Part shown: positions 21,547-61,972 of the stretch, piece by piece | Layout: each line of letters begins with the position of its first letter | Position numbering within the stretch: the stretch's first letter is position 1 | Source of the DNA: Antedon mediterranea | Taxonomy: Eukaryota; Echinodermata; Crinoidea; Comatulida; Antedonidae | Direction of reading: 5' to 3' | Assembly (NCBI RefSeq): GCF_964355755.1 | Contig: NC_092673.1 | Span: 35,597,648 to 35,661,647, forward strand | Length of the DNA stretch: 64,000 nt | Notes under the pieces: model-generated | Seen by the model: only the letters and a program-made list of their open reading frames with translations | Told to the model about the DNA's origin: nothing | Database searches by the model: none | Program-made: the position numbers and the translations under genes

Positions 21547-21556
21547 AAGAAAAATA

Positions 21557-21627: not shown

Positions 21628-21839
21628 TCTTACATTAAAAATGTGGGTTACAGAAAGTTTTTTAATCCATTTAAATTACAAATAAATGGTAATAAGCACA
21701 AAGCAAAATAAACATGTGTAAAAGTGATAATTACCGATTACACAAAATAAGTATTTTAAAAAATAATAAAAATAAGATATACTCTGTATAATTATCATAT
21801 TGCGTATACAGTACTTTTCACCATAAAGTTAAAAAAAAA

Positions 21840-32397: not shown

Positions 32398-35300
32398 CCA
32401 AAGAGTCTAAGAAGTACATTAAAGTCACAGTCCGAAAAAGAGACTAGCAATACTACTGAATGTTCCCAGGCCATAGATGATGTATTAATTAATGATAACC
32501 ACTCATATGTAATAAATAATAGGAATAATACAATAACAGATATAAACCAAATAGTTAAAAAAGATCCTCATATATTTGAGGAACTTAATCAAAAGGGTTT
32601 TATATTTGCACATTTAAATATACGTAGCCTAGACTTACATTTTGATGAATTGCAACGTATTCTAAATAACAACAATTTCAATGTTTTTGGCTTAAGCGAA
32701 ACATTTCTCGATAATACATTTATTGATGAAGATTTTCATGTTGACAACTATATATTACACAGACTAGATAGACGTAAAACTAAAAAAGGTGGAGGTGTAG
32801 CACTCTATATAAACCTAAAAACTAACCACAAAATTAGGAATGATCTAATGTGTAATGAACTCGAACTCCTATCTATTGAAATAGTACGTGATAAATGTAA
32901 AAATCTAATTGTTCTATTGTGGTATAGACCTCCAAACACTACAGCAGTTCTTTTTGAATATTTACAAAATATATTTCAAAAGATTGAACTGGAACACAAA
33001 GATATTATGATGATGGGAGATTTAAACTGTGACGTTATGTCTGACAATCCACATTGCTACACAAAGAAACTAATTGAATTAAGTGAAAATTTTAATCTAA
33101 AACAGATCATTGAAGAACCAACACGTATAGAAAAACATTCCTCTACATTAATAGATGTTATGTATTTCTCAAATGTTTCTAAAATATTAAAGTCTGGAGT
33201 TATCCACGTCGGCTTAAGTGACCACTCAATGCCATTCGCTATAATAGGGAAAGGGGCGAAAAATAATAAAGATTCCAAAAAAACAAATAAAATTATTAAA
33301 CAGGATCATAATTATAAAATGACACGAAACTTTAAAAAATTTAATGAAGACAGTTTTTTAAACGATTTATTAATGGTAAATTGGAATGGTATTACAGCCA
33401 GTGGCGACGTAAGTCAGAGTGCCAAACTTCTCGAAACTACACTAACCAACATTTTAGATAAACATGCTCCTTGGAAAAAACACAGGGTACGTAAAAAAAC
33501 AGCTCCTTGGCTCTCTGATGATGTAATTGAAAATATGAGAGAAAGAGATAAACTCAAAAGAGAATGTAAACATTCTAAAAATGAATCACTCTGGAAAAGG
33601 TACAGAAAGTATAGAAATATGTGCAATAAATTAATACGTAAAAGTAAAGCTAATTTTATTCAAGAAAGTATAAAAGAAAATAAAAACGATGTAAAAAAAA
33701 CATGGGATACCATAAGATATATTATATCGTCAAAAAAGAAAACTCAAACTATTCAAACAATTTGCAATGATAATGGCGATGTCCTCTATAAAGCCAAGGA
33801 CATCGCAAATGAAATTAATACATTTTTCTCAAATATAGGTTCAAATCTTGCATCACAAATACATGAGCCGATAAATGATATAAATTATGATGAAATCGAT
33901 GCTTTCACCGAAAATAATTTTGAATTCGAACACATCACATGTGAATTTGTATATAAATACTTAAATAATCTTTCAAAAAACAAAGCCACTGGTCATGATA
34001 ACTTACCACCGGGCATTCTAAAACTGTCTGCCCCGATTATATCCCCAACAATTACAAGAATTATAAATCACTCCTTCACAACATGTAAATTCCCAAATAC
34101 GTGGAAAATAGCAAAGGTCACGCCAATTTTTAAGAATGGTGAAAAAACTAACCCTAATAATTATCGTCCCATTTCCGTCCTACCTATACTTTCAAAAATA
34201 ATTGAACGAGTCGTTTTTAATCAACTTTATGCTTTTTTGAATAATAATAATCTGTTATGTATAAATCAATCAGGTTTTCGACCATCATACTCAACATCTA
34301 CTGCACTTACAAAAGTGACGGAAGACTGGTATAGTGCAATAGACGAGGGTAAGCTGGTCGGAATCTGTTTACTAGATTTTAAAAAGGCCTTTGATACGGT
34401 AAACCATAACATACTATTAAGCAAATTGAGACTTTATGGTTTAAGTAAATATGTTTTAAAATGGTTCGAGAGCTATCTGTCTGAGCGAAAGCAATTCACA
34501 AATGTAAATAATACATTGTCTGACTATACACACATCCAATGTGGAGTGCCTCAGGGGTCAATCGTGGGCCCACTTGCTTTCCTCTTATATATAAATGACC
34601 TATCGAAAGTTGCAAACAAATGTAAAATAAGTATGTATGCTGACGATACTATAATTTATTGTTCTTCAAAAAATGAAAATGAAATATACCAAAGTATAAA
34701 TGAAGAACTTATACAAATCGACGATTGGCTAAAAAATAATAAATTGAGTCTAAATGTCTCTAAATCCGAGTTCATGTTGATCGGATCGACAAACCGATTG
34801 GCAACCACCAAAGAAAAAAATAGATCAGTTAATATAGATAACGATGTTGTACCACGCGTTCTATATTGCAAACATCTCGGTATCATAATAGACGAACATT
34901 TATCATGGAAAAATCAGATTGAATACATTCGAGGTAAAGCTCTAAATGGATTGGGTATGCTTAGACGATGTAGCTATTATTTTCCACAAAACATATTAAA
35001 ACATATTGCAAACTCTATTGTAATACCTTACTTGAGCTATTGTAACATAATTTGGGGAAATAGTAGTCAAACTCTAATGAAAAGAGTTCAAACTATCCAA
35101 AACAGAACAGCTCGAATCGTGTGTGGTCTAACATGGGACACACCTAGTAGTGAGGCACTAAGGCAAATTAATTGGTCACCTTTATTTTATCAAGATAGAT
35201 ATGAATGTTGTATGGTTATATATAAGGTTTTGACAGATAATGCCCCACCTTACCTAAATAATGTATTTACATTCAATGATATAAATTATAATCTAAGGAA

Positions 35301-35454
35301 CAGTGATACACATCTATTCATCCCAAAGCCAAAAACAGATTTTAAAAAACGAAGTCTGTCTTATCGTGGAGCAATTATATGGAATAGTCTCAATATTGAT
35401 ACCCTTCCAAAATCAGTTAAGTTGTTTAAAACGTATCTGAAAAATGCATTGTAA
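32398..35454 (+). CDS. LINE ORF2: endonuclease + reverse transcriptase
   Basis: Open from just after the ORF1 stop to 35454. The conventional start is unclear: a TTG at 32650 is the first alternative start, but the endonuclease motif HLNIRSL lies upstream at about 32608-32628, so translation must begin earlier or by reading through the TGA. The APE-type endonuclease has SETFLD, WYRPPN, MGDLNCD and SDHSMP. The RT has NYRPISVLPILSKI, LDFKKAFDTVNH, GVPQGSIVGP and catalytic YADD. Both catalytic centres look intact, so the enzyme may be active, although the 5' end of the element is missing. Confidence 0.88.
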   Translation, partial: PKSLRSTLKSQSEKETSNTTECSQAIDDVLINDNHSYVINNRNNTITDINQIVKKDPHIFEELNQKGFIFAHLNIRSLDLHFDELQRILNNNNFNVFGLSETFLDNTFIDEDFHVDNYILHRLDRRKTKKGGGVALYINLKTNHKIRNDLMCNELELLSIEIVRDKCKNLIVLLWYRPPNTTAVLFEYLQNIFQKIELEHKDIMMMGDLNCDVMSDNPHCYTKKLIELSENFNLKQIIEEPTRIEKHSSTLIDVMYFSNVSKILKSGVIHVGLSDHSMPFAIIGKGAKNNKDSKKTNKIIKQDHNYKMTRNFKKFNEDSFLNDLLMVNWNGITASGDVSQSAKLLETTLTNILDKHAPWKKHRVRKKTAPWLSDDVIENMRERDKLKRECKHSKNESLWKRYRKYRNMCNKLIRKSKANFIQESIKENKNDVKKTWDTIRYIISSKKKTQTIQTICNDNGDVLYKAKDIANEINTFFSNIGSNLASQIHEPINDINYDEIDAFTENNFEFEHITCEFVYKYLNNLSKNKATGHDNLPPGILKLSAPIISPTITRIINHSFTTCKFPNTWKIAKVTPIFKNGEKTNPNNYRPISVLPILSKIIERVVFNQLYAFLNNNNLLCINQSGFRPSYSTSTALTKVTEDWYSAIDEGKLVGICLLDFKKAFDTVNHNILLSKLRLYGLSKYVLKWFESYLSERKQFTNVNNTLSDYTHIQCGVPQGSIVGPLAFLLYINDLSKVANKCKISMYADDTIIYCSSKNENEIYQSINEELIQIDDWLKNNKLSLNVSKSEFMLIGSTNRLATTKEKNRSVNIDNDVVPRVLYCKHLGIIIDEHLSWKNQIEYIRGKALNGLGMLRRCSYYFPQNILKHIANSIVIPYLSYCNIIWGNSSQTLMKRVQTIQNRTARIVCGLTWDTPSSEALRQINWSPLFYQDRYECCMVIYKVLTDNAPPYLNNVFTFNDINYNLRNSDTHLFIPKPKTDFKKRSLSYRGAIIWNSLNIDTLPKSVKLFKTYLKNAL

Positions 35455-43368: not shown

Positions 43369-45518
43369 TTAATAGGAAAATCTACCATTTATACTCTGGA
43401 AGTGTTTCCTCATATCCTGCACTATATCATTAGGTAATTTACACCCACGCATATCAAGTGTTTTCAGTTTAGGAGAAATAGCCAGTAATGTGCCAAGTGA
43501 AGAACCTGTGATGTCACGGAGAGTATTCTTATTGATATCAAGATTATCTAATTCCAACACTAGGTTTCTATTGACACATTCCCTCACCATAGCATCTATG
43601 ATAACACCTGACAGATGGCAGAAGTACATGTTAAGTGTTTTCAGTTTAGGTGAAATAGCCAGTAATGTGCCAAATGAAGAACCTGTGATGTCACTGAGAG
43701 TATTCTTATTGATATCAAGATTATCTAATTCCAACACTAGGTTCCTATTGACACATTCCCTCACCATAGCATCTATGATAACACCTGACAGACTGCACCA
43801 GCCTATGTTAAGTGTTTTCAGTTTAGGACAAATAGCCAGTAATGTGCCAAGTGAAGAACCTGTGATGTCACTGAGAGTATTCTTATTGATATCAAGATTA
43901 TCTAATTCCAACACTAGGTTTCTATTGACACATTCCCTCACCATAGCATCTATGATAACACCTGACAGACTGCACCAGCCTATGTTAAGTGTTTTCAGTT
44001 TAGGACAAATAACCAGTAATGTGCCAAGTGAAGAACCTGTGATGTCACTGAGAGTATTCATATTGATATCAAGATTATCTAATTCCAACACTAGGTTTCT
44101 ATTGACACATTCCCACACCATAGCATCTATGATAACACCTGACAGATGGCAGAAGTACATGTTAAGTGTTTTCAGTTTAGGTGAAATAGCCAGTAAAGTG
44201 CCAAATGAAGAACCTGTGATGTCACTGAGAGTATTCCAACCAATATTAAGATTATCTAATTCCAACACTAGGTTTCTATTGACACATTCCCACACCATAG
44301 CATCTATGATAACACCTGACAGACTGCAGAAGTACATGTTAAGTGTTTTCAGTTTAGGTGAAATAGCCAGTAATGTGCCAAGTGAAGAACCTGTGATGTC
44401 ACTGAGAGTATTCCTACTGATATCAAGATTATCTAATTCCAACACTAGGTTTCTATTGACACATTCTCTCACCATAGCATCTATGATAACACCTGACAGA
44501 TAGCAGTTGCTTATGTTAAGTGTTTTCAGTTTAGGCGAAATAGCCAGTAATGTGCCAAGTGAAGAACCTGTGATGTCACTGAGAGTATTCTCATGGATAT
44601 CAAGGTTCTCTAATTCCAACACTAGGTTTCTATTGACACATTCCCTCACCATAGCATCTATGATAACACCCGACAGCCTGCAGTTGTACATGTTAAGTGT
44701 TTTCAGTTTAGGCGAAATAGCTAGTAATGTGCCAAGTGAAGAACCTGTGATGTCACTGAGATTATTCCCAATGATATTAAGATTATCTAATTCCAACACT
44801 AGGTTCCTATTGACACATTCCCTCACCATAGCATCTATGATAACACCCGACAGCCTGCAGTTGTACATGTTAAGTGTTTTCAGTTTAGGCAAAATAGCCA
44901 GTAATGTGCCAAGTGAAGAACCTGTGATGTCACTGAGAATATTCCCTCTCATATTAAGATTATCTAATTCCAACACTAGTCCTTTCTTTGATAGTGCATC
45001 AACAGCATCATTCATAGTTTCACCTGTTAAATTACCTAGTTTAAGCATTTTGAGTCGTCGTGCATTAATCAACAAATGAATTAAAAATGATGTAGAAAAA
45101 TGTGTACCAATTGGATATAGCTCGCTTTGATAAGCTTCTATATTGTATTTAAAGGTATATTTACTACATTCAGTAGACAGACCTTTCACCACATCATCAT
45201 TATATGATTGACTGATTTTAGAAAAAACATACTCTTCATCTTTTACAGCAATCAAAACATGAGCTAGCATTCTACCAATGTCTTCTGATGATTCCTGTTG
45301 AATCCATTCCCACCTCTTACGGTGTTTCCATTTTCTTTCTTCCTTATTCATACTACTTATCATCTTTATGATACCCTGATCTGTTTTTAAGCTCTTACCA
45401 CGTCTCATGAAAAATCGTCTTACAGAGTTACATATCTCATCTATAGCATGTTCATCTGTCATTGTATCTTGACTTGGTAGCTGTTGATGTGAAGTTGAGG
45501 GCTCACTGTTATCAATAC
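43369..45518 (-). CDS. Last exon: unique region + nine 59-residue LRR repeats
   Basis: The acceptor TTTTACAG precedes GTATTG, and the exon is open to the stop. The first ~180 residues are unique, charged and helical, with no family recognised. Then come nine repeats of 59 residues (177 bp), each made of two LRRs: LVLEL(D)NLxIxxNxLSDITG and [20 protein letters not shown]. Most of each unit is nearly invariant at both DNA and protein level. Differences cluster at the x positions, which in LRR folds face the concave ligand side. The last unit diverges and caps the array. The open frames on the opposite strand here are shadows of this repeat. Confidence 0.88.
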
Positions 45519-48500
45519 CTGTAAAAGGAATTCATTTTATATTAATAAGACACGGTGGAACCAGACAATGGGTGTGCAGCAATTTGATATATATTTACCA
45601 GATTCATGTCAACTTTTACAATATTAAAAGTTTCTTTATTGCTTAAGATATACACAGTATACATTAATATTTGACAATTTAGAAATAATGTAAAAGAAAC
45701 AAAAACTTAAAAAAAAAAAGTTTAAAAAATATAAACACACACTCCTTAAAGTGTATTTTTAGATGTATAGAATTTATAATTATATTCTGTAATTAAATGT
45801 TATTTTATTAATAAAATCATTTTATTTTCTATTATTTCTAAACAATAAATAATAACAATAAATGTTACATTTACTATTTTTTAATTACCTTTAATTAGAT
45901 CCATTTCTTTTGGTGATTTCTCAGAATCTGTTTTAACAGAACATTTTTTCTCTACAAACATTTTTCTTACATAGTCTATTAATGTTGTCTCTATTCAAAG
46001 AAATCAAATATCAACTCATGTATTATATAAAAAGTATATTTAAAAAATATAATAATTTTTTGTTTACATGTTTTTCATTTAAAATTAAAATACATGATTT
46101 ATTGTCAGTCTTACTCTTTTTTCTTGGTTTCTTTGCTTCAACTTGATCTTCTGACTCATCTAATAAAACAAGAGAAAATACTACAAATTAACTTTAATTC
46201 TTTAAATGTCCCTTTTATTCCCATTTTCTCATAGGTTTCAGTAAATGGTGTTTCCAGTGTTTTTCAAGCTCAGGTTTAGATTGACTAATTGTTGGTGAAT
46301 ATATTGCTGCTTCTGGTAATTTTCCAGTTTACAGACGTTTAATTTAAAAAGACTCCCAGAACAATTCATTTTCACACACCTCATGGTATATTTATTTGAA
46401 CTTACACCTTTAAATCGGTGGCACTCAATTAATGACAATTGGTGTCTTATTAAAAATATAAATAAGACACCAATATATTATTAGATAGGTATAGGTACTG
46501 TATTAAAAAAAATATGTTAGATAATATAACTGAACATTGTGTTTTTAAGACTTAAAATTATATCATTCACAATCTGATCTAAACTACATTGTGACATAAC
46601 AAATTTCTTCATAAATTTTTCTTTAAACTTTTTAATTCTTTTCTGAACTGACAGTACAGCATACCAACCTTTTGTTGATTTCTTTGTTTTCTTTAATTTA
46701 ACAGACTTATCTAAACACAACATGAAAAAGAAGTTACTATTGTAAATAATATTATACAAAATGAATGTTTATCAGTGTGGTGAAATATAACCTTTCATCA
46801 TTCACCTCTGGGCATTATTTATACCATTACATAAATATAAAACATTCATTATTTGTTTTATATCTAAATAGATTCCTGTCATTTGAATCAGATTGAATCA
46901 AATGTAGGCCTAGGCTAGTAGCCCAGGCCTACATTTGATTGAAACAGTAACATTTGGTTTTTAATAATATAATAAATATTATCTTTATTTGGATTTTATA
47001 AACACACTTACTGTAGTGTTAATTATGTCAACAAACGACCTGATCTGTTTTATGTTTCGTTTGGTCGTGCTAATGTTTGTAAAAATGGTTTTATTTCTCG
47101 TTTGTCTTCCATGAGTTTGTTGCTGTGTACATTGCTATGTTTCCCGTTAACTTATGGGTAGTGGGGGTAAAAATCTATATATATATATTTATATTTTATT
47201 TTTTCATATAACATCACCTGTAAGTGGGAACATTGTTCCTGTTGGAATGTTTTGAATAAATAAAATAAATAAATAAATAAAGGAAAATAAATAAAGGAAA
47301 ATAAAAAACAATCCTAGGCCTAGCAAGACTAGGCTAAGCGCCTAGGCCTAGCCTAATACTAACAGGCCTAGAAAGGCAGCGATACCATTACAAAACTTTG
47401 ACAGGCAACTGGAACTCAATTTTTTCAATGATTCTACGTCTTGTAGAGATGTTCCCATTAATTAATCAAAAATCCTACACACTATCTAAAGCTAATTAAA
47501 AGGCTTTTTTTGGTCTAAATTAGTACATATATCTCTCCAAATATGTACTTTTATCGCGAATAACATAACATTCAATCTTCGTGGCAGAAATACAAAATAG
47601 GAGGTGCTGTTGTATTTCTATTATAAAAAAAAATATTTTTCAAATGAGAAAAGATTTTTTTGTTCGTACACGAAATAAATTACCATTGAACAACCATTCA
47701 ATAGTGCGTACTATTGTCATGTGACCGACAATCGTACAATCAAATGACACAAATTTATTTAGGTGTTATGTTATAACAAATTGAATATTATATATTACAC
47801 ATCTATTTAAACATGGATCTGATATAAAATTTGTTGTTGTAGATAAACTGTCTTTGCAGTTGATTTCTCAATAGTGGAGTTCATTTTTTCTTTTCTCTCT
47901 TTTCAGTTTAATATCGTTATCAACGGTATGTAATCACACAAACAATTTTTAATGAGTGTTTCAGTTGTCGAAAAAATCACAACTTTAAAGATTTTTTAAA
48001 TTACATGGTGTACTATAGTATCATAAACTTAAAATTGCCAAAATTGTAAAGGCAGAACTAAACAGCCACTGACCAACCTCCTCCCCCGGGGGCTGACCTA
48101 AGAAATTAATTTTTTTAATAATAGAGCTGTTAGGTCCTCAGAAATGGGACTTATTATTTGAAATAAGTCTCCCATCATGCTTGGGGCTAAGTTAAGACAA
48201 TTTTGAGCTGTTAAGTCCCCTGAAATTGGACTAATAGACGTACTTTAAAATATGCAACAAAATATGTAAGTCTCCAGGTACAGATCTACCATGAGCTTAG
48301 AAATTTTAAAAAAATAGAGCTGCTTAGTGGACCGTTTCGCCTTTTTGGTGGGGGTGTGGACTACTACATCATGCAATTGTTTATGTCTAGATGTAAGCTA
48401 AAATAATTGCAGTCTTTTCTTTGTAATATGACCAGAGCTACTGAAAGGGTCTATTAATAATTATAAAATAGTTTATGGAATAATTAATAAAAATTAAAAA

Positions 48501-51500
48501 AATAAGTATATTTACTTGTAAAAGTATAGAACAATTTTAAATTTAATTGCAAAGTATTTTTTAAATTGAATTCAAATTATTAAAATGCTATAAATGAAAA
48601 TTGACTATTTACTAAATAAAGGTTTATAGCTAACAAAATATACTTTGTTAGAACTTGCATACCTAGTATAGATGATGATTGTTGTTGTGGCTCAACATTC
48701 TCTGTTTGCGTACCTCTACATTCTGTGGTTTTATATTAAACAATATAATTGTTGGTTAAAATAAACAATATATATATAATATTTCCTCATCTTTATCATT
48801 TCAAATTAATTAATTGAATTTCAGTATATCACCGTGCGGTTTAGAATTTATTCTGTGCCTGTGACGTTACTGTGCAGTCTTTCCCTTTGGTTGTTATTCT
48901 GAATAAAAACATTTTGCCTTCCATACCTACAGTATACGACCATAAGATGTGATATATAAAGTATAATATAATTTCTTACATGTGGTCAACAGCAACATAC
49001 ACCTTTGTTAAATTTTAAGATTTATTATCAACATATTTATAAAAAGTAATTATGAATTATTATTAAACTGTGATGTACATTTGACTATAACATTATTTAA
49101 GTTATAAATATTCAGAGAAATAAAAATACTGTAACAAATCCCTGGTAAATACAAATGGTAGATGGGGTGGGGGGGGGGGGGGTTATTATTTATTAGGTAG
49201 AGAACGGATTATCTCTTTTGTAGCTGTTTAATTCATTTGAAGATATACATACCACTACCACTTCTGTAACGGAGTACCAATTGAAGGGTTGACTGATTCT
49301 GAATGTTGTAGTCGGACAGTGCTTGCCAATCTTTAAGCTGGTTTCCAGCAAAGATAATTTGTTGCTGCTCTGGAGGAATTCTCACTTTATCTTGGATCTT
49401 AGCTTTCACATTCTCAATGATGTCTGATGGTTCAACATCAAGTGTAACTTCCTCTCCAGTGAGTGTTTTCACAAAAATCTCCATGCCGCCTCTCAGCACA
49501 AAAGGCTCTGATAATAGACAAAAACAAGACTTCAAAATGTGCCTAATATTCATATCAAGGCCATATTTGGCTAAGATCAGATTTTAATATCATGACATAA
49601 TGACAATAACAATGCAAATCTCTTAATAATTTTTTAATACAATACTTTCTGATAAAAATGAAAAACAATTGTAGATTTTTTATACATAAAAAGAATAGGC
49701 ATACATTGGTTCAGGTTCATGATTGTTTATTATTTACACTCAGCTATGTGCTTTTTATGTTTTGTTCAGACACACATGAAATGGCAGCTGTGGGGTGAAG
49801 GATGGTTGTCATATTCTTTTATACACAGATGTCTAGAATCTGCTTATTTTATATTCCATTCCATTATCATACTTCTTGTATTTGTATATGTTTTTTGATC
49901 TTGAAATAAAAATGTCATGCAGTGAAATTTTCTTATACATGACATGTCCTATAAACTCACATGCTTAAATGGTATACTGTAAAAAGTATTTAATTATTTA
50001 AAAAAAATCACACTCAACAGTGGGAAACCTGCCTCTTACCTAAGGATATTGTCATAGTAATTATAGTAGTATTATGTCTAGAGAAGATTTTGAACTATAC
50101 TAAATGATAGACCATTATAAATAATGTACTCGTAAAATAGGAAGTAACAGTTTTCATAATAAAAAAGTGTTGAATCCCACCAGAACAGAACATGGAATTT
50201 ACCTGTACCAGTAGAGCTTTTTTGTAATGCTGATTTTGGCTCTCCTTCATCAGTACCGCCAGCATCTGTAAATATCAATATACACTTAATGGACTTGATG
50301 ATGTTGTTGCTTACATACAACAAATACAATTTTAGTTAATTCATTTAGTTTAAAGTATAACTTGCAATAATAGTGTTCCATAGCATATCTACAGTTAGGG
50401 CGTTTGTTGTATGAGAGGATGCATCTGGTGGGTAAATATCTGTGATAATACTGCATATGGCTCAGTGGTCTAACGATATGATGGTCACTGGTTCTTACCC
50501 TATCCAGAGAACTTTTTTCATACAACTAAAAAATATGGAACTTTTCCACAGTATACACAGTATTATTTTTAAAAACCTGTTGAATTTGTAAAATGTGGAA
50601 CACTGTACAGTAGATATTTTGGTTTGATTAACTACCGTAGTAATGAATAAAATATTGATTGCATAATAACATAATAAATTATTATCCTAATTAAAAACTT
50701 TCATGAAAAGATATAGTTTTAAAGTCCTATTGAAGAAAACAAACATAACATATGCATACATTTTGTTAGAACTTCTTCAGGTTCTCCAAGCTTCAAGATA
50801 CCTAATTTCTCGATAAATAGTTGCATATTTCCTTCACTGATGATCTGTCTGTTTTCAAGATCATTAATCAGATCCCATTTATCTTCATAAGATGTTGGTG
50901 CCTCATTAACAAGATCACTGATGGATTCCACATTTTTTGTGGTCAGCTTATTTCCAAATTCTACCAACATGCATCTGTGACGACTATATTTTGAAACGGA
51001 AATCTCCTCGACATTTGGGAATGTTACAACTTCCTCTTGAATTTTTCTTACTAATTCAAATTCTCCTGTTACATTGATGGTGTCAAAAAACAATGTGAGA
51101 TCTTTGCTTGTCAGATGATTAGATTCAATTAAGAATTCCAGCAGGTCTATCGTGCTAGATGCCTTGTCTAGCATATGAGGAAGCAGAAGGGGTTTGTACA
51201 AGGTTTTCAGCAAACTGATTGAATCCCTCTTGTCATACCAGCGAGAAAATTCTGCTTTAATGTAGGTAAAAATAAAATCTCGTACTCCTAGATTGAAAAG
51301 AGAAGTTGAACTAAAAATGGTTTTAACATATTTGTTTTCAGAAAAAGCAACAACTATGAAAGACGCATACTACTGTACTACGTAACACATATTTGGCTCC
51401 TATGGTGAAAATCATGCTCTCATCTGACATTGTCTATTTGACATTGTCTATAACTATTTAAAGTACCTTGCTTTGATGTGATGTGAACTAATAATAATGA

Positions 51501-54500
51501 TGGTCTGAAAATCAATCTAATATTGTATAATTAATTCTAATATTATTACAAAATGTGGCCTGGTAAACTTTGCATGATCATTTTCATCACAGATTACATA
51601 AACCAAAATAATATTGAGTGTTGTCTGTTGTGGTGTAAATTATGAATTTATTTCCTTTAAACTCGTCACCCTCGTTTGAAACAGATACTTTTTCATGTTC
51701 CATTTCTTTTGTTTGTTTCTTCTGATATTCTGTTTCTAGTACAGCAAACTTTTTTAAGTCATTAAGCATCTGTTTTAACAGTTGATGATAGTTTGGTACA
51801 ACTTTAAAAACAAATTCAAAAGAACAAATAGAAATATTATAATCACTGAAATTTTAAATATTTAGTTGCAAAGTACTGTATGCATACTTTATTTTCCCTA
51901 AATCTTTTATTTGATAACTTTTTTAAATGTGTTTTTTATTTAAGCTTTTTATGATTATATACTCTATCAAGAATGTGCTTCTTTAACGTATATAAAAATA
52001 TGGCCACCACCAGGTAGGCCTACTTCATCAAGGCTTCTAAGAATGGATGACGAGTTGGGAGCAGGAATGCTAGTAGACCAAACCCAGAACCGTTTTTGAT
52101 TACGATCATGCGGGAAATTACCTCACAACGAAAATAAAATCTCATTGCATTTCTCATTGCTAGAAAACAAAATTCTCAGTAAAAATTGTTTTACCAGAGC
52201 GTTACTAACAACTTCCTGGTTTTAGTTTATTTCTTGCAAGAAAAAGGTACTTGATTAATTAATTTAATTATTTACTGATCTACAGCCAATGACCACAATG
52301 CAATATTTAAACTTGTCATGCATTGTTTGTTTTCATGATTCAGAACATACTTTTCTGACAATTATGCTGCCTCTAGAATATTGATTCTTGTCAATCAAGA
52401 CATAACTATATGTTTTAATCTATGAAGGCATATTAGGCATTTACTACCACATTCATTGTTACTTGTTTTAATCAATAAATGTGTTAGGAACTTACTTGTC
52501 TAGTTTCATTTTGAACATTAATTATGAAAGTATATCAAGGAAAAAATATACAACATTCAATGTAAATTATATCGATCACAGAGCTTGTTTACTGAAATTG
52601 GTAATAAACCCTGCCAGGCATCATCGTGACATGGTCTTCTTACAAATCCCCAAGTCGGACATCTCACAAACATTACCCACTGACCAAGAGCACCATAACC
52701 ACTCATCATACAATAAACTCATTTATATATATAGCATAACTTTCAACATTCCCTTACATGATTACCAAATGTCAAATTGGTTTCATAAACCGCCTATTAT
52801 ATCTAATGCAGACTAGTCGCATCCCACCCATCATCTAGTTCTGTTTAATATAAACTGTTCATTGGTTGTGTTTTCGTTACAATATGTTACTTTTATTTTT
52901 ATTATCTGTTTTATATTTTACCAGCTAGGCCTACACAACTATAAGCCTAGCTAAGCTAGGCCTAAGACCGTCCATGAGACGAAACTTGACGCGTTCTACT
53001 TGGTAGTGCATTGTTTCTCTCTTTTTATCATAATAAACAATAAAACGTACATTTTAGACAAGGAATGACCTGGTGTACTGTTTTTAAATATTTTTACAAA
53101 ATTGTAGGTCTAGTGTCTTTAACCACTTACCAACTTCATGCTCCATTGGTTTTGGTAAATCTTCATATTCTTTTTGCAGCATTTCTCTTTCATAGTACAT
53201 TGGTACATCTATAAAAGGAGTCAATTGAACATTCTAAAATAGTTTTTATTTTCACAGACCAGGAGAGTTGAGTTTCTTTATTGTTGAAGTATTACCACTA
53301 ATTTGCTTTGACCAAAAATATAAAACATACCTTTGAGGTAGCTAGAACTTCTGATTAGTTTTGATGGTCCAGGTTGATCTATTAAAAATAGTATTATACA
53401 TATTGATTTTAATAAACAGACAATGTAGAGATTTTGATGGTCCAGGTTGATCTATTAAAAATAGTATTATACATATTGATTTTAATAAACAGACAATGTA
53501 GAGATTTTGATGGTCCAGGTTGATCTATTAAAAATAGTATTATACATATTGATATTAATAAACAGACAATGTAGAGATTTTGATGGTCCAGGTTGATCTA
53601 TTAAAAATAGTATTATACATATTGATATTAATAAACAGACAATGTAGAGATTTTGATGGTCCAGGTTGATCTATTAAAAATAGTATTATACATATTGATT
53701 TTAATAAACAGACAATGTAGAGATTTTGATGGTCCAGGTTGATCTATTAAAAATAGTATTATACATATTGATTTTAATAAACAGACAATGTAGAGATTTT
53801 GATGGTCCAGGTTGATCTATTAAAAATAGTATTATACATATTGATTTTAATAAACAGACAATGTAGAGATTTTGATGGTCCAGGTTGATCTATTAAAAAT
53901 AGTATTATACATATGGATTTTAATAAACAGACAATGTAGAGATTTTGATGGTCCAGGTTGATCTATTAAAAATAGTATTATACATATGGATTTTAATAAA
54001 CAGACAATGTAGAGATTTTGATGGTCCAGGTTGATCTATTAAAAATAGTATTATACATATTGATTTTAATAAACAGACAATGTAGAGATTTTGATGGTCC
54101 AGGTTGATCTATTAAAAATAGTATTATACATATGGATTTTAATAAACAGACAATGTAGAGATTTTGATGGTCCAGGTTGATCTATTAAAAATAGTATTAT
54201 ACATATTGATTTTAATAAACAGACAATGTAGAGATTGTGATGGTCCAGGTTGATCTATTAAAAATAGTATTATACATATTGATTTGAATAAACAGACAAT
54301 GTAGAGATTTTGATGGTCCAGGTTGATCTATTAAAAATAGTATTATACATATTGATTTTAATAAACAGACAATGTAGAGATTTTGATGGTCCAGGTTGAT
54401 CTATTAAAAATAGTATTATACATATTGATTTTAATAAACAGACAATGTAGAGATTTTGATGGTCCAGGTTGATCTATTAAAAATAGTATTATACATATTG

Positions 54501-57500
54501 ATATTAATAAACAGACAATGTAGAGATTTTGATGGTCCAGGTTGATCTATTAAAAATAGTATTATACATATTGATATTAATAAACAGACAATGTAGAGAT
54601 TTTGATGGTCCAGGTTGATCTATTAAAAATAGTATTATACATATTGATTTTAATAAACAGACAATGTAGAGATTTTGATGGTCCAGGTTGATCTATTAAA
54701 AATAGTATTATACATATTGATTTGAATAAACAGACAATGTAGAGATTGTGATGGTCCAGGTTGATCTATTAAAAATAGTATTATACATATTGATTTTAAT
54801 AAAACAGACAATGTAGAGATTTTGATGGTCCAGGTTGATCTATTAAAAATAGTATTATACATATTGATTTTAATAAACAGACAATGTAGAGATTTTGATG
54901 GTCCAGGTTGATCTATTAAAAATAGTATTATACATATTGATTTTAATAAACAGACAATGTAGAGATTTTGATGGTCCAGGTTGATCTATTAAAAATAGTA
55001 TTATACATATTGATTTTAATAAACAGACAATGTAGAGATTTTGATGGTCCAGGTTGATCTATTAAAAATAGTATTATACATATGGATTTTAATAAACAGA
55101 CAATGTAGAGATTTTGATGGTCCAGGTTGATCTATTAAAAATAGTATTATACATATGGATTTTAATAAACAGACAATGTAGAGATTTTGATGGTCCAGGT
55201 TGATCTATTAAAAATAGTATTATACATATTGATTTTAATAAACAGACAATGTAGAGATTTTGATGGTCCAGGTTGATCTATTAAAAATAGTATTATACAT
55301 ATGGATTTTAATAAACAGACAATGTAGAGATTTTGATGGTCCAGGTTGATCTATTAAAAATAGTATTATACATATTGATTTTAATAAACAGACAATGTAG
55401 AGATTGTGATGGTCCAGGTTGATCTATTAAAAATAGTATTATACATATTGATTTGAATAAACAGACAATGTAGAGATTTTGATGGTCCAGGTTGATCTAT
55501 TAAAAATAGTATTATACATATTGATTTTAATAAACAGACAATGTAGAGATTTTGATGGTCCAGGTTGATCTATTAAAAATAGTATTATACATATTGATTT
55601 GAATAAACAGACAATGTAGAGATTTTGATGGTCCAGGTTGATCTATTAAAAATAGTATTATACATATTGATTTTAATAAACAGACAATGTAGAGATTTTG
55701 ATGGTCCAGGTTGATCTATTAAAAATAGTATTATACATATTGATTTTAATAAACAGACAATGTAGAGATTTTGATGGTCCAGGTTGATCTATTAAAAATA
55801 GTATTATACATATTGATTTTAATAAACAGACAATGTAGAGATTTTGATGGTCCAGGTTGATCTATTAAAAATAGTATTATACATATTGATTTTAATAAAA
55901 CAGACAATGTAGAGATTTTGATGGTCCAGGTTGATCTATTAAAAATAGTATTATACATATTGATTTTAATAAAACAGACAATGTAGAGATTTTGATGGTC
56001 CAGGTTGATCTATTAAAAATAGTATTATACATATTGATTTTAATAAACAGACAATGTAGAGATTTTGATGGTCCAGGTTGATCTATTAAAAATAGTATTA
56101 TACATATTGATTTGAATAAACAGACAATGTAGAGATTTTGATGGTCCAGGTTGATCTATTAAAAATAGTATTATACATATGGATTTTAATAAACAGACAA
56201 TGTAGAGATTTTGATGGTCCAGGTTGATCTATTAAAAATAGTATTATACATATTGATTTGAATAAACAGACAATGTAGAGATTTTGATGGTCCAGGTTGA
56301 TCTATTAAAAATAGTATTATACATATTGATTTTAATAAACAGACAATGTAGAGATTTTGATGGTCCAGGTTGATCTATTAAAAATAGTATTATACATATT
56401 GATTTTAATAAACAGACAATGTAGAGATTTTGATGGTCCAGGTTGATCTATTAAAAATAGTATTATACATATTGATTTTAATAAACAGACAATGTAGAGA
56501 TTTTGATGGTCCAGGTTGATCTATTAAAAATAGTATTATACATATTGATTTTAATAAAACAGACAATGTAGAGATTTTGATGGTCCAGGTTGATCTATTA
56601 AAAATAGTATTATACATATTGATTTTAATAAAACAGACAATGTAGAGATTTTGATGGTCCAGGTTGATCTATTAAAAATAGTATTATACATATTGATTTT
56701 AATAAACAGACAATGTAGAGATTTTGATGGTCCAGGTTGATCTATTAAAAATAGTATTATACATATTGATTTGAATAAACAGACAATGTAGAGATTTTGA
56801 TGGTCCAGGTTGATCTATTAAAAATAGTATTATACATATGGATTTTAATAAACAGACAATGTAGAGATTTTGATGGTCCAGGTTGATCTATTAAAAATAG
56901 TATTATACATATTGATTTGAATAAACAGACAATGTAGAGATTTTGATGGTCCAGGTTGATCTATTAAAAATAGTATTATACATATGGATTTTAATAAACA
57001 GACAATGTAGAGATTTTGATGATAAAACACTGAATGTTTTAATATCTCTCACAAGATAATGGTGACGAGTAAGGCTTTCGCGCAACACATCGTAATATGC
57101 ACATGTAATTTATTAGGCTTGATCTACAGTAGGCTGCACCACAACAATTGTACAAACAGCATAGTGTTGAAAGAGATAAAAAAAAAATCAAATTTTAAAA
57201 ATTCAAATGGCCATATGATGACGTCATATCATACTTACAGTCTAATTTTCAACAACTCATTACCTTTTCATAATATGTTAAAAATAGGGGGTCACCAGCC
57301 ATTCCGGAGAACTATAATCGATTCAAAACAGGCATATTTATACACAAATTTACATAAAATTACCTATTTTCAAGCCCAAAATTTTGACATGCATGTGTGA
57401 AAGGAACTTATCATAAACGGTATACAGAACAACAATCAAGTACAAAAACGGTCTGTCTAAGCTGCGTACAAGCTAAGTACGCAAAAGCGTGTGCATAATG

Positions 57501-60500
57501 CGAAATTCTTTGAAAAATGTGAAAAGCTTAAAATGTCCTGAAACGTGTAGAAAGTTTAGAAATTGATTTGAGCATTTTTAACTTTCAAAGCATGAGTATG
57601 CACGAATGTTCACACTTTTTCTGATGATATAGGAAGATGACCTTTGACATGCAGCATACGTGTGTCAAGTGGTATTTAAAAATATCTATTGGTTTCTAAT
57701 TTTTAGTCAATCTAAGAATTTCAGAAAATTGCTCATAGTTTAATATGATTTTCATCAAATCAAAGTTAAACAACTACATACGTGTATCTGCTGGCTAAGT
57801 TACAACATAACTGCTTTCGCCGTTTTAGAGATCTGCCACCAACAAAAAATGATTAAACAAAAATGTTCTGGACAATAATTGCTCTTCTGAGAGCCATAGC
57901 CTAATCATTTTCAGGTTGTTTAAAATTGTTGTAAGAGATGTTGACGTTTTTTTCAATTAGTCTCATAGGCTATGGGATAAGTGAACATTAGAAATTAAGT
58001 ATAATTGTAAGATCTGGAGTTTTGTTTGAAAATCAACCTTATTGCCCACAAAGAATACAACTTACCTAGCTGTGGACTTAAAGACCTCTTAAATTGTTCT
58101 GATATTCCAACTTTATCTGTAAAATATTTATCATCGAAATAGCTATGAATTAATTGCCAATAATACTTTTAAAAACCCACAAATTCTCTTCAATACACAA
58201 TAATTAATAATAATATAATAATCAACATTTATATTGCGACAATTAAATATAATAATTGAATATGCATTGTGTCCTGAATTTGCTGAAAAAAGTTATTAAA
58301 TTAATTTTAAATGAATCAAAAGTAGGTGACTTTTTGACAAAAGGTGGTATTTCATTCCAAAGAGAAGATGTAACACAATAAAAAGTGCATCCACCGTAAA
58401 TGTTAGCATGGAAACTTAAAATGGTTGACGTCTATAATTGGTCAGAGGAGCAAAGGTGACCTGATGGAACACATCGAGGAACAATTTTGGTAATTAAATT
58501 CGGAACGCATAGACAAATGTTCAAAGAAAATTGTGTTTTCTCTAAATTCTTTCTTTAAACATCACATTATGTAAAGATAGGTTAGTAAGGAGTAGTATAA
58601 TTCCATAACCGCAAGCTCATCTAGAGAATGCTAGGCTGGTGATTTGGAGGTCGTGGGTTGAAATCTCAGCTGAGAATTAACTTGACTAATTCTCAATATG
58701 TACTCAGAATATGGCAAATATCTTGCCAATCTGTCTGATTTAAAGGTACTAAAACAGTAGTTCAAAACAATAATAACAAACTAATTATTTCATTACTAGT
58801 ATTTTTTATTAATCATATTCATTTAAATTGATTCAATAAATCACTCCTTCAAATTCACCTGTTTCTAATTTAACAATTCCTTGTGATCCATGTTCTATTT
58901 CATGTTCCATTTCATGTTCCATTTCATGTTCCATTCCATGTTTCATTCCATGTTCCATTCCATGTTCTACTATTGTTGATGTATCAGATGAATTGTATGA
59001 ATCTGCTAAAAAATACAAATTTACATTGATGTTTAATTTAGTCAAATTTGTCAAATTTCCATGACACCATTCAGGTTATGATGATGTACTAGACAAATCA
59101 TTTAAATCTCAAAATAGCAAAAATTGACTTTGATGAATTTAATCAAAGTAAGGTTCTACAATGTTCAACTGTCTATAATTCCGATTCCAAAAAAAAAAAA
59201 ATATTATGTTTGACATTAAAATAAATAGTGATGGCTATGTGTATTTATATTGTGTAACTGCACCACTTACCTGTTTGTGATCTTTGTTCTTGTAGAAATT
59301 CTTCAGATTCGGATTCTGTTGATGAACCAGATAAATCATCTGAATCATCTAATAAGGATAGCAAAAAACATTTAATAATGTTCAATGTAGTAAAAACTAC
59401 TGTATTATCATGATGAAGGATGTCAGGATCTAGAACGTTTGTCACATTCTATGACCCTGATGACAAAAGAAAAAGAAAATATTTTGTACAAAGAATATAT
59501 TTTGAATCATTGTTAATTTAAATAATAATTATGGTATTAATTTAAAAAATTGTCAGGCGTTTTTGAGGGGGTGTATCCACCAGAAATTTCTATTTATATC
59601 CGAATAGACTGCCCAGGATTGACTCGCACATCGTAGGAAATTTCTATTTCTGTTTTTGTTGTTGAGTAAAAAGGGGCACCTGTACAATTTAGGGCCTCCC
59701 TCTTGAATCCACCCTTGAAAAATATATTGTCATTGCTAGAATATTAGCAAATACCCTGTCTGTTTACATGGTTGAGTCATTCTTACTTATATAAAATTTT
59801 AATTTTAAAAAATCATAGCAAAATAATTTCTCACCTATTTCTTTTATCTTTTTCATTGCAGATTTTAAATCCTGTTCTTCAATTTTAACACCAAGCAACT
59901 GGTGTTGAAATTCTTGCTGGAATTCCCCTGCTACTATTTTTGCTAAATCTTTGAGCAGATTCTCACTAGAATAGGCTTCCCAGAGGTTTTCTAATGATTT
60001 AGAGTCGTATGCAGTTAGATATAACACTAAAGACCCTGTTCCTACGTGTGTGAAATATAAATGAATACTCTTGAAGTAGGATGTAAGCTTTTCCAAAATA
60101 TTGTAACAATGTGTGGTAGCTGCTTTCTTTTGTTTTGCTAGATTGTTGAAGAAGATTTCAAGAGCATGTGGTTGGTCTCTGTCTTCAACTGACAAAGAAC
60201 AGTCGGTTTTCACTAATAACAATTCCACACCTTAAAAGATAATATACAATATACATATTCTTTTTCTGCATTGTTTTAAACAGACTACCATATTTACTAA
60301 GAATGTATGGGTTTGTTTTCTAATTGAAATTTCTAAAGATTGATATTCTTTGAAACCGGTGTCAGTAAGATGACTTTCAACCTAAAAAACAAAACAATTT
60401 TCTTCTTTTGTTTGAATTTTGCACACACTCAGTATTGTATTCAGAATGTGAATATTATTTACAAAAACTTTTCTTTTTATTTGTTTGCAATATGATGCTG

Positions 60501-61972
60501 TGTATCAAATAAAACTACCTGATAATAAACATGTTATTTCCTGCTGAGTTGATATATTTGTTAAGAACTAAGCAATAAAAGCTATTCAATTACCAATACC
60601 TTTTAGTTTTTCATCCTCAATTATTGTTTCCCAGTTTTCTAAAACTGTTTCTTGACCAACCAAAATTGTCGCTAAATCTTTAATAAGCTCTCCATTCATC
60701 TGTAATTTTGTTAATTCTGATAAGGCAGATCGACTATCTGAATCCACAGAAAACACAAGCGATGTATTTGGATTCACTGTGGTTTTGATGTCACTTAAAG
60801 TGAGAGATGGATTCACACTTCTAAAGTGTTCCTTAAACTTTTTGAACATTTCCTTGCAATATTCTTCAACTTTGACAATCAAATCAAATTTTACTGCACA
60901 AGAATTAAATTCGAGGATTAGTTGAATATTTGCTCCTTTAAAAAGAAATTTTCAAAAGTCATTAATAATTGAAATTTCTAAAGATTGGTATTCTTTGAGA
61001 CTGATTTCAGCAAGATCACGTTCAGCCTAATGTGAAAAACATAACAATTTTCTTCTTTTGTTGGAATTTTGCAAATACAGTATTGCAGTCAGAATGTGGA
61101 CATTATTCACAAAAAACATTTTCTTTTATTAGTTAGCAAAATGCTGTGTATAAATAAAAGTACCAGAGTAATAAAAATGTTGTTTCCTGCTGAGTGGATA
61201 TATTTGATATAAGAACTATGGGGCAGTACAGTATCACAGATTATATTACAGTCTTTGAAATTTCAAGTCTTGCTTTTATGCAACTTATACCGTTACCCTA
61301 ATTAGACGGTTTCTCTTTATCGTGCTAAACGTATCATGATAATAGATCATCATATTTTAATATGAACATGCCTAATGACCCACAATATTACAGTTATTAT
61401 TAAAACTTCAATATAAATGATCAGAATTTGTAATTACCATTATCAAGAAGTATTTTTCTTGCGTGTTCCGGAAGAAGTTTTGCAAACCGCTCTATTTTAT
61501 CAGGTTTATTTTCTAAATGTAACTCTCTTTCCAGATAACAAACGACTGACCAAATATTTGGTAAATTATCGGTAAGGTCTCTCAGGTTATAGCGAGAAAT
61601 TATCTTATTTAACGTATCTTCTCTAACTTCCTTTAAAGCCTTGAACAATTTTTTTCGGTATGATGAAAATGTTTGCGTACCTGAATTTATAAGATTGTTA
61701 TCTTTCATATAGTCTCTTACAAGATCTATAGCTTTCTTTTGATTAGACAATTCAGAAATCTCGAGGAGACAGCAAACATTATCAGCTGAGATAACACCAT
61801 TTTTTTCAAGTGCATTAAATATATCATTCGCTATAAAGTTTGGTTTAATATCTCCATAAGGTAGGATATTCAGTAGGCAGAATTTCAACATATCATACTT
61901 TTCACCTTCATAGTGTTTACCAAGTTCATACTTTAAGTCGCCAAACTCATCATTCCTTTCAAGAAATGCCAT
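43369..61972 (-). CDS. DED-DED/TRADD-N x2/DED-DED/ubiquitin-like/LRR protein, 17 coding exons
   Basis: Seventeen minus-strand exons join into one frame of 5,115 nt (1,704 residues plus stop). Domains in order: two death-effector-like (residues 1-178), two TRADD-N-like (179-424), short acidic, Ser-rich and basic linkers (425-623), two DED-like (624-799), linker (800-820), ubiquitin-like (821-905), linkers (906-988), a unique region (989-1168), and nine LRR repeats (1169-1700). There is no signal peptide or membrane segment, so it is probably cytosolic. DED and TRADD-N domains build caspase or death-signalling assemblies and LRRs sense ligands, so an innate-immune or cell-death receptor or scaffold is the best inference. 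No NACHT is visible, unlike standard NLRs. Every intron is phase 1. The start at 61972 (ATGGCATTTC) follows a TTGCAG acceptor, implying an untranslated first exon upstream. Some small exons may be missed. Two adjacent genes remain possible. Confidence 0.7.
45889..45990 (-). CDS. Linker exon (34 codons)
   Basis: Flanked by GAATAG and AAAG|GTAATT. The product is mixed charged, with [14 protein letters not shown]. Phase 1 at both ends. Confidence 0.6.
46115..46159 (-). CDS. Micro-exon, acidic then basic (15 codons)
   Basis: [15 protein letters not shown] between TTATTAG and A|GTAAGA. The basic end resembles a nuclear-localisation signal, but this is weak. Confidence 0.5.
46669..46710 (-). CDS. 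Micro-exon, lysine-rich (14 codons)
   Basis: [14 protein letters not shown] between GTTTAG and G|GTTGGT. The donor GTTGGT was chosen over a GTATGC four bases on, because only the first keeps phase 1. Confidence 0.5.
46711..48662. other. Long intron with TAGGCC-rich and (AAAT)n stretches
   Basis: About 2 kb. It holds repeated TAGGCCTAG words near 46905-46935 and 47315-47370, an (AAAT)n run at 47258-47300, and otherwise AT-rich sequence. No exon was recognised. Confidence 0.5.
48663..48722 (-). CDS. Micro-exon, Gln/Ser-rich (20 codons)
   Basis: [20 protein letters not shown] between ACCACAG and G|GTATGC. Phase 1 at both ends. Confidence 0.55.
   Translation of the reverse strand, partial: NVEVRKQRMLSHNNNHHLY
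49166..49186 (+). other. G-run in intron
   Basis: GGGG T and a run of about 15 G just 3' of the ubiquitin-like exon on the coding strand (as C-run). It is potentially quadruplex-forming and length-unstable. Confidence 0.5.
49253..49507 (-). CDS. Ubiquitin-like domain exon (85 codons)
   Basis: A whole ubiquitin fold beginning [13 protein letters not shown], one phase-1 exon. It is preceded in frame by PFVLRGG, the tail of another ubiquitin, so the exon appears to derive from a polyubiquitin gene across a unit junction. The hydrophobic patch L8/I44/V70 and K6, K27, K29 and K33 are kept. K11 is E, K48 and K63 are N, and the C-terminal LRGG is replaced by YRSGSG. It therefore cannot be conjugated through its own tail and lacks the main chain-building lysines. 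It probably acts as a built-in interaction module. Confidence 0.88.
50203..50265 (-). CDS. Linker micro-exon (21 codons)
   Basis: Gly/Ser/Glu-rich ([20 protein letters not shown]), between TTTACAG and G|GTAAAT. Phase 1 at both ends. Confidence 0.6.
50455..50515 (+). other. Possible tRNA-derived SINE fragment
   Basis: TGGCTCAGTGGTCTA matches a pol III A-box, and CACTGGTTCTTACCC about 30 bp later resembles a decayed B-box. It is intronic with respect to the DED gene. Confidence 0.35.
50760..51287 (-). CDS. Tandem DED-like domain exon (176 codons)
   Basis: Two helical death-effector-like modules. The first has [19 protein letters not shown], and the second has [19 protein letters not shown] then GEPEEVLTK; both match the DED pattern of helix 4 to helix 6 (F/L-LE-x-x-x-x-(L/I)S-x-x-N/D). 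The exon starts after CAATCTAG and ends AAAAT|GTATGC. DEDs assemble by homotypic contacts with FADD- or caspase-8-type partners. The canonical RxDL motif is not obvious. Confidence 0.65.
51604..51801 (-). CDS. Linker exon, coiled-coil-like (66 codons)
   Basis: [18 protein letters not shown] then a charged stretch with [12 protein letters not shown]. The acceptor TTTAAAG is clear. The donor TTTG|GTTTAT is weaker and was chosen because it keeps phase 1 and the frame into the DED exon. Confidence 0.5.
51802..53130. other. Intron, about 1.3 kb, nothing recognised
   Basis: AT-rich with scattered TAGGCCTA words. A plus-strand frame at 52481-52816 has no supporting features. Confidence 0.5.
53131..53208 (-). 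CDS. Linker exon, charged (26 codons)
   Basis: [19 protein letters not shown] and KPMEHEV, between TTTATAG and G|GTAAGT, a consensus donor. Phase 1 at both ends. Confidence 0.6.
53331..53378 (-). CDS. Micro-exon whose 5' end seeded the minisatellite (16 codons)
   Basis: [16 protein letters not shown] between TTTTTAATAG and G|GTATGT. Its acceptor and first ~20 bases are the same as in every unit of the adjacent 73-bp array. Confidence 0.65.
53359..57018. repeat. 73-bp minisatellite, 50 copies, carrying a splice acceptor
   Basis: From the first TTTTGATGG at 53359 to the last at 57014 is 3,655 bp = 50 x 73 + 5. The five extra bases are accounted for by five units reading AATAAAACAG instead of AATAAACAG. 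Copies differ only at a few sites (CATATTGAT/CATATGGAT, TTTTAAT/TTTGAAT/ATTAAT, GATTTTG/GATTGTG). On the minus strand each unit reads TTTTTAATAG then ATCAACCTGGACCATCAAAA, the acceptor and start of the exon at 53331-53378. Short repeated open frames in the array are not genes. Confidence 0.97.
57019..58065. other. Intron, nothing recognised
   Basis: About 1 kb of AT-rich sequence. The plus-strand frame at 57059-57400 has no supporting features. Confidence 0.5.
58066..58116 (-). CDS. Micro-exon (17 codons)
   Basis: [17 protein letters not shown] between TTTTACAG and G|GTAAGT. Strong splice sites; phase 1 at both ends. Confidence 0.6.
58595..58700 (+). other. Possible tRNA-derived SINE fragment
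   Basis: GGTCGTGGGTTGAAATCTCAGC resembles a pol III B-box (GGTTCGAATCC-like) about 45 bp after AAGCTCATCTAGAGAATGC. It is decayed and intronic. Confidence 0.35.
58859..59002 (-). CDS. Exon with EHGM/EHEM repeats (48 codons)
   Basis: Ser/Thr-rich start, then about eight EH(G/E)(M/I) tetrapeptides from a 12-bp repeat, then GIVKLET. The acceptor TTTTTAGCAG was taken at the second AG to keep phase 1. The repeat tract is likely length-variable. Confidence 0.6.
59271..59348 (-). CDS. Acidic Ser-rich exon (26 codons)
   Basis: [18 protein letters not shown] and QEQRSQT between CTTATTAG and G|GTAAGT. The acidic serine run is a likely casein-kinase-2 type target; that is inference. Confidence 0.65.
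59835..60230 (-). CDS. TRADD-N-like domain exon 2 (132 codons)
   Basis: The exon has [19 protein letters not shown] followed by a helix [15 protein letters not shown], then a strand and an amphipathic helix. This strand-turn-helix-strand pattern matches the N-terminal domain of TRADD (LIVQLRF... then LRAYREGALRAAL). It shares the same layout with the next exon upstream. The acceptor is CTTTTAAG, the donor G|GTGAGA. Assignment is from pattern only. Confidence 0.6.
60594..60935 (-). CDS. TRADD-N-like domain exon 1 (114 codons)
   Basis: [19 protein letters not shown] followed by [14 protein letters not shown], the same pattern as the exon at 59835-60230 but only distantly similar, so an old duplication. 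The acceptor is TTTTTAAAG, the donor G|GTAATT. Confidence 0.55.
61438..61972 (-). CDS. First coding exon: tandem DED-like domains (178 codons)
   Basis: The start ATG at 61972 begins MAFLERND; an in-frame ATG at 61990 lies in what reads as intron before TTGCAG. The first module has [34 protein letters not shown] and AIDLVRDYM, a clear DED pattern. The second has [20 protein letters not shown] and is more diverged. The donor is AATG|GTAATT. Confidence 0.75.

Follow-up and report, generated by a model that had tools for sequence, protein, structure and literature searches.

Does a single gene encode a protein in which DED pairs and TRADD-N-like domains are followed by a ubiquitin domain and an LRR array, with no NACHT domain between them? 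An earlier note had made this claim for a 64,000-nucleotide stretch of the genome of the crinoid Antedon mediterranea (here the window; C4:35597648-35661647 in an assembly of 354 Mb and 18 contigs). At the level of the gene model, as predicted from the DNA, the observation is confirmed. When joined, seventeen exons on the minus strand, from 61972 to 43369, give a continuous reading frame of 5,043 nt (1,680 amino acids) without internal stops, and all 16 introns are GT-AG and in phase 1. The claim of 17 exons in one consistent frame held, with exon ends that recur in paralogs; the length given earlier for that frame was 5,115 nt. The ATG of the frame, at 61972, lies directly after an acceptor-like AG, and the frame ends at 43369. 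In the model, a tandem DED is followed by two TRADD-N-like domains, linkers, a second tandem DED, ubiquitin, and the LRRs.

The phase count alone is no independent evidence because the short exons of the model were picked partly for frame-keeping. Independent support comes from paralogous loci: an acceptor at offset 0 was observed in at least one of L001 to L006 for E3, E6, E7, E8, E10, E11, E12, E15, E16, and E17, and most paralog splice sites agree with those of the window in aligned position and phase. For E5, E13, and E14, no paralog match was found at E < 0.05. Among DED-pair exons of loci on many contigs, the best-scoring donor was in phase 1 in 23 of 24, with GT at the exact aligned base in 14 of 24, according to a crude score for donors within 45 nt. 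This test used 24 of the 30 rows of an alignment of E1-like exons; the window and five rows that ended short of the exon end, or that represented a second divergent copy, were left out.

Most of the short exons encode linkers. Upstream of the central DED pair these are the acidic, Ser-rich E4 (59271-59348; a single 48% match, in L016), the Glu/His/Met-rich E5 (58859-59002), which contains a 12-nt tandem repeat, E6 (58066-58116; 94% identity with L003), E7 (53331-53378), E8 (53131-53208), and E9 (51670-51801; homologs in L005 and L016). E11 (50203-50265) lies directly before the ubiquitin exon in both the window and L002/L001. Further downstream are E13 (48663-48722), the lysine-rich E14 (46669-46710), the charged E15 (46115-46159; homologs in L001, L003, L004, and L018), and E16 (45889-45990), which is 82-94% identical to its counterparts in L001, L003, L004, L006, and L018. 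Intron 6 measures 4,687 nt and contains a 73-bp minisatellite of about 50 copies (53359-57021), which repeats the acceptor and first codons of the adjoining E7 and thus places many decoy acceptors beside the real exon. The L005 paralog carries the minisatellite in about 24 copies (7287-9017 of that locus), and none was reported in L001.

Elsewhere in the window, a 14.6-kb inverted repeat (3832-18439) has arm pieces of 4,748, 1,928, and 540 nt that are 100% complementary. It includes PC4-like and 2OG-Fe(II) oxygenase frames that are present again on the other arm; possible explanations are gene conversion, a fold-back in the assembly, or a duplication that took place very recently. Reverse transcriptase is encoded by two retroelement frames, at 30195-32063 (minus strand) and 32398-35454 (plus strand), one of which also has an endonuclease domain, and three tRNA-Val (AAC) genes lie close together in about 2 kb of the minus strand (19609-21628).

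Scanned exon by exon, E1 (61438-61972), the first coding exon, and E10 (50760-51287) match Pfam DED (PF01335) with E values of 1.1e-6 and 6.5e-7. Their scores of 29.2 and 30.0 bits are both below the gathering cut-off of 35.9 bits, which other DED matches of the genome exceed. Because Pfam scores were below the cut-offs for the DED and the TRADD-N calls, these were tested by other means. An alignment of 30 E1-like exons of the genome, 22 of which match Pfam DED at 0.01, gave a profile that matches the tandem DED of caspase-8 over approximately positions 6-149 (E 1.1e-4). The AF2 model of E1 has a pLDDT of 91.6, and when it was compared with the PDB using Foldseek, all 50 matches listed, out of 102, were entries of caspase-8, cFLIP, or viral FLIP, alone or in complexes (E down to 6.7e-5, TM approximately 0.7, identity approximately 20%). 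For E10, where the evidence comes from sequence, a profile of nine aligned E10-like exons matches the tandem DED of cFLIP at positions 44-164 as its best hit in the PDB (E 5.9e-4). The second DED of each pair is supported by profiles, fold, and homologs. Inspection by eye did not reveal RxDL, a DED-interaction motif, in either E1 or E10. A chance origin of the DED calls was rejected on the basis of the caspase-8 and cFLIP profile matches of the two exons and the fold matches of E1. By fold and homology, E1 and E10 are divergent tandem DEDs, as the earlier note had placed them, and its expectation of HMM support was borne out in part: both exons match, but under the Pfam cut-off. E1 has the tandem DED fold in common with caspase-8 and cFLIP; in contrast to these, the window protein does not contain a caspase-like domain, and the identity is only about 20%.

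The TRADD-N-like domains of E2 (60600-60935) and E3 (59835-60230) are, by their sequences, the least sure of the domain calls; their support consists of low Pfam scores, a motif that is conserved, and homologs that exceed the cut-off. E3 matches TRADD-like_N (PF20694) at 0.0057, with 16.9 bits against a cut-off of 23.7. The Pfam scan of E2 gave no relevant match (best E 0.097), and E2 is assigned solely by homology to E3-type exons, namely E3 itself and L009. Of the two TRADD-N domains claimed, one is thus backed by a weak match and a motif, but this match is below the cut-off and the other domain is called by homology. Related exons at L008 and L009 exceed the cut-off (43.6 and 24.5 bits), and 6 of the 12 rows of the TRADD-N alignment match PF20694 at 0.1. 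The TRADD-N superfamily is described as having an RRM-like four-stranded fold with a tiny residue and a Ser in the beta2-beta3 turn, and as sitting between constant and variable parts, coupled to Death-fold domains (Kaur et al. 2021, PMC8195603). G65-S66 of E3 lies between predicted strands 57-62 and 67-73, matching a tiny residue plus Ser in the beta2-beta3 turn. S66 is kept in at least 90% of the 12 rows, so that the Ser of the motif is nearly invariant, and E2 has T-S at this position, keeping the Ser and replacing the tiny residue. The coupling is likewise seen here, with the E1 DED pair before the two TRADD-N copies and variable cassettes after them. The model of E3 is of low confidence (pLDDT 63.9) and has the order strand-helix-strand-strand-helix. 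Foldseek gave nothing below E 0.1 for this model, with mostly ferredoxin-like matches and no TRADD structure among the matches listed; a second fold comparison reached a best Z of 6.2, also without TRADD among the matches listed. A PDB profile search with the TRADD-N alignment gave no match below E 0.056. The genome survey for TRADD-N combined PF20694 (4 matches at 0.01) with one concatenated query and yields a lower bound. At L008 (C8:15156223-15157812) and L009 (C10:20328250-20330404), DED exons are followed by the TRADD-like_N exons that exceed the Pfam cut-off, in the order DED pair, TRADD-N, DED pair at L009.

By comparison with the Pfam cut-offs, the calls of the ubiquitin and LRR domains are secure at the sequence level. 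E12 (49253-49507) matches PF00240 with an E value of 5.9e-26 and 90.5 bits, the cut-off being 25.4, so that the ubiquitin domain claimed for this gene is indeed present. Its protein shares 55 of 76 residues with the polyubiquitin of the genome, its DNA is 82-83% identical to five of the polyubiquitin units, and it starts with V-L-R-G-G-M, like a polyubiquitin junction; E12 was therefore probably captured from polyubiquitin. It differs from polyubiquitin in being internal to a larger protein and in the loss of lysines 11, 48, and 63, and it keeps L8, I44, and V70. The tail reads LRYRSGS, with R-S-G-S (G75S) in place of a conjugable C-terminal Gly-Gly, and more exons follow in the model. Because of G75S and its internal position, E12 would not be conjugable by its tail. 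The ubiquitin of L001 (6860-7111 of that locus) keeps R-G-G-S, and a deubiquitinase might cut the L001 protein, unlike that of the window. The possibility that E12 is a chance open frame was rejected, as it is 94% identical to the L001 copy, in which both splice sites are at the aligned place. Inside the receptor cluster, L017 contains a degenerate polyubiquitin of three units (1206-1799 of that locus, minus strand; C4:35.5167-35.5173 Mb), possibly the source or a relic of the captured ubiquitin.

E17 (43369-45518) encodes a helical head that resembles the region following NACHT in NLRs, then the LRR array and the stop. Pfam LRR_1 (3.6e-25) and LRR_4 are both over their cut-offs. Nine LRRs had been counted earlier; the array stands, but it is made up of eight equal-length double units of 59 residues plus end units, that is, approximately nine double units or 19 single repeats. 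Fourteen of the 59 columns vary between units, among them 8 of the 12 that we take to be exposed strand columns (the x positions of LxxLxLxxNxL, with motif and register assumed by us) and 6 of the 47 others (Fisher 4e-4); given the non-independence of the units, this no more than hints at a ligand face. As had been claimed, no NACHT was found: tblastn with one NACHT of the genome gave a best E of 2.8 in the window, and the closest of at least 103 listed NACHT matches (a lower bound, 103 of 162 candidates having been scored) is 485 kb away. The window protein is therefore not an NLR, but only NLR-related.

The genome does encode receptors of that type. At L007 (C11:16.95 Mb), a DED exon (8.7e-5) is followed by a single exon with NACHT (6.1e-18) and LRR. 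For 53 of the 103 listed NACHT matches, the 10 kb upstream contain a DED exon of the same strand; 5 have one downstream and 0 have one on the opposite strand, as judged from a DED list of 326 rows from which eight TRADD-type matches, six second DEDs of listed pairs, and one further row had been left out. The E17 head shows homology (31% identity) to the stretch that follows NACHT. We compared heads using 37 of 159 matches, leaving out rows that covered mainly LRR. For the 14 heads that are at least 38% identical to E17, the list contains no NACHT in the 5 kb upstream; among the more distant heads, a listed NACHT is found upstream in 18 of 23 (17 of these at 1.2-1.5 kb) and none is listed in 5 of 23. 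In an unrooted tree of 26 heads, the 14 NACHT-less heads fall on one side of a branch with support of 100/97, and L058 and L059, distant heads with no listed NACHT, fall outside this group. The 26 heads were taken from 33 rows, without six second matches in LRRs and L056. In a first tree, which included partial LRR rows and to which the NACHT-bearing L049, L050, and L054 contributed no row, the NACHT-less heads did not form one side. If the root lies among the other heads, a single loss of NACHT in the lineage would be the simplest reading; it is only inferred, because the trees are unrooted and the number of listed NACHT matches is a minimum.

The paralog cluster occupies the same 180-kb stretch of C4 as the window. 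L003 (C4:35.48-35.49 Mb) has E1-E2-E3-E6-E10-E15 (twice)-E16-E17 within 8 kb, without ubiquitin and with a broken LRR exon. L002+L001 (C4:35.56-35.58 Mb) carries E1, part of E2, E3, E11, E12, E6, E7, E8, E10, E15 (twice), E16, and E17. Here the E11-E12 cassette comes before E10, in the window it comes after, and as the place of the ubiquitin differs between its two copies, a DED before the ubiquitin is no fixed trait. Identity between L002+L001 and the window is 38-40% for E1 and E3 and 80-94% for E10, E12, and E17, so that the two halves of the gene have different histories. L016+L005+L004 has E1 (48%), part of E2, E3 (35%), E4- and E9-like exons, E7, E9, E10, E15, E16, and E17. Shorter sets are a second unit of L004 (only E10-E15 (twice)-E16-E17), for which the E16 donor was not found, L006 (E1-E16-E17), and L018, in which a truncated E1 precedes E15 (twice), E16, and E17. 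The LRR exon is broken in two of five cases in the cluster (L003, and L004 at 9310); the window and L002+L001 are thus the copies of long order with an LRR exon open to its usual end. By their sequences, the paralogs support a single unit, and the related copies, with their parts in a different set or order, suggest an immune receptor family built by exon swapping.

Comparisons with paralogs (Nei-Gojobori dN/dS) gave 0.47-0.57 for E1 (4 comparisons), 0.62-0.67 for E2 (3), 0.27-0.47 for E3 (4), and 0.31-0.82 for E10 (4), that is, values below 1 in 15 of 15 comparisons for these four exons. The head of E17 gave 0.37-0.82 (5 comparisons), E6 gave 0.27 (1), and E7 gave 0.24, with one more comparison without silent changes. 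No sign of constraint was found in these comparisons for E12 (1.40; 1 silent and 5 amino-acid changes from its single paralog) or for E16 (1.20 against L001 and 0.68, two more being without silent changes). The differences between the two copies of E12 are too few for a judgement on selection.

These data bear on whether the model describes one working gene. It might instead join two or more adjacent genes, a DED-TRADD-N gene and a DED-(Ub)-LRR gene, split at the minisatellite intron. The 4.7-kb size of intron 6, the occurrence of shorter units such as the second unit of L004 and L006, and the unequal divergence of the halves in L002+L001 would fit such a split, which we nevertheless consider quite improbable: L003 has the whole order within 8 kb, phase 1 is common to all 16 introns, and the LRR exon, in the window as in the six paralog copies examined, begins at a phase-1 acceptor and therefore needs an upstream exon. 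In L006, the sole homologous exon found upstream of the LRR exon is the first-exon DED. Equally, the layout might be a functionless accident of tandem duplication in a decaying, NLR-derived array. The two broken LRR exons among five, the truncated DED of L018, the degenerate polyubiquitin of L017, the varying position of the ubiquitin, and the E16 donor missing from the second L004 unit all speak for decay in the cluster. In the window copy, however, the frame stays open for 1,680 codons and every intron is GT-AG, and dN/dS of E1 and E3 is 0.27-0.57 over eight comparisons, which makes this explanation, too, improbable.

We give about an even chance to the explanation as a whole, in which one gene assembled from symmetrical phase-1 cassettes would encode a NACHT-less, NLR-derived receptor or adaptor working as a scaffold-type sensor. 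The protein would be cytosolic, and its LRR array would bind a ligand. Both tandem-DED units would then nucleate or join DED filaments without ATP-driven oligomerisation, with caspases or this genome's DED-NACHT-LRR receptors as possible DED-bearing partners. The TRADD-N domains may gate or bridge between the DED and the variable parts, in line with the proposal that TRADD-N keeps its neighbours inactive until a signal arrives (Kaur et al. 2021, PMC8195603). The internal ubiquitin, with L8, I44, and V70 kept, could serve as a permanent docking site for ubiquitin-binding signalling proteins, and the family would diversify by loss and movement of phase-1 cassettes. The earlier note had likewise proposed an immune sensor that nucleates DED filaments and recruits ubiquitin-binding proteins, and its interpretation is supported in part: the gene model, its domain content, and the tandem-DED fold bear it out, and the roles themselves are predictions. 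The main rival to the scaffold-type sensor, which we regard as the most likely role, is that the protein would regulate the genome's DED-NACHT-LRR receptors or serve as a decoy for them, by analogy with cFLIP or with CARD-only and pyrin-only proteins. Such a protein would co-assemble with these receptors via DED and LRR and dampen or tune them, and would not be a sensor of its own. The position of the NACHT-less group inside an NLR-related head family, the genome's 103 or more NACHT matches, of which 53 have a DED exon upstream, and cFLIP as the best PDB match of the C-terminal DED pair are consistent with this role. We consider it rather unlikely, as the long LRR array is retained and varies at presumed exposed strand positions, which suits ligand binding, and two tandem DEDs with a ubiquitin resemble a scaffold more than a minimal inhibitor.

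The general theme of this architecture is known. In marine invertebrates, one to three Death-fold domains are combined with TRADD-N and a variable C terminus that may include LRRs, and in Amphimedon the C-terminal parts include an SH3 followed by LRRs (Kaur et al. 2021, PMC8195603). Lineage-specific expansions of DED-TRADD-N proteins, in NCOA6 and DEDD2 clades, are described for Amphimedon, Crassostrea, Branchiostoma, and cnidarians (PMC8195603). Judging from the accessible part of that report, these proteins share with the window protein an N-terminal Death-fold followed by TRADD-N, the variable C terminus, and the tiny-Ser motif. They differ in their tendency to a single TRADD-N copy between globular domains, whereas in the window two tandem DED pairs flank two copies, and the inserted ubiquitin and NLR-akin LRR part appear only in the window protein. 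In the same portion of the text, the sole mention of a Ubl concerns a bacterial system, in which it is fused to EAD1 and not combined with DED-TRADD-N (PMC8195603). Amphioxus, sea urchin, and Nematostella are reported to have DED-NACHT proteins as well (PMC2575513). In the present genome, DED-NACHT-LRR receptors such as L007 have the upstream DED-pair exon, the homologous head, and the 59-residue LRR units in common with the window, in which NACHT is absent and TRADD-N and ubiquitin are added. Brown algae have a repertoire of ROCO candidate immune receptors with LRRs, and its diversification was ascribed to exon shuffling; these candidates concern other organisms and other domains, with a GTPase core (PMC11378527). 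Titles and abstract beginnings in the open-access literature yielded neither such a layout nor a NACHT-less DED-LRR protein. The suggestion that the layout is unprecedented can thus be kept for the combination, but not for Death-fold plus TRADD-N plus variable C terminus (Kaur et al. 2021, PMC8195603). As far as the consulted sources extend, four features appear to be new here: the second DED pair, the presence of two TRADD-N copies, the ubiquitin insertion, and an LRR part related to the DED-NACHT-LRR receptors of the genome itself.

In a broader proposal, which we put forward tentatively and with somewhat less than even confidence, the window protein would represent a new class of NACHT-independent immune receptors. 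One NACHT loss from a DED-NACHT-LRR receptor would have given rise to an exon-cassette family that numbers 14 or more LRR-head loci in this genome, a few broken ones included. Phase-1 exon shuffling would have added, removed, or rearranged its tandem DEDs, TRADD-N pairs, and captured ubiquitin in frame, and the built-in ubiquitin would replace signal-induced ubiquitination. The findings suggest that, within one genome, an NLR lineage lost its ATPase and had its other parts re-assembled as in-frame cassettes together with a captured ubiquitin. If the gene is expressed, two questions become testable: can a tandem-DED scaffold turn LRR recognition into a signal with no NACHT switch, and can a hard-wired ubiquitin take the place of regulated ubiquitination in a death-fold complex?
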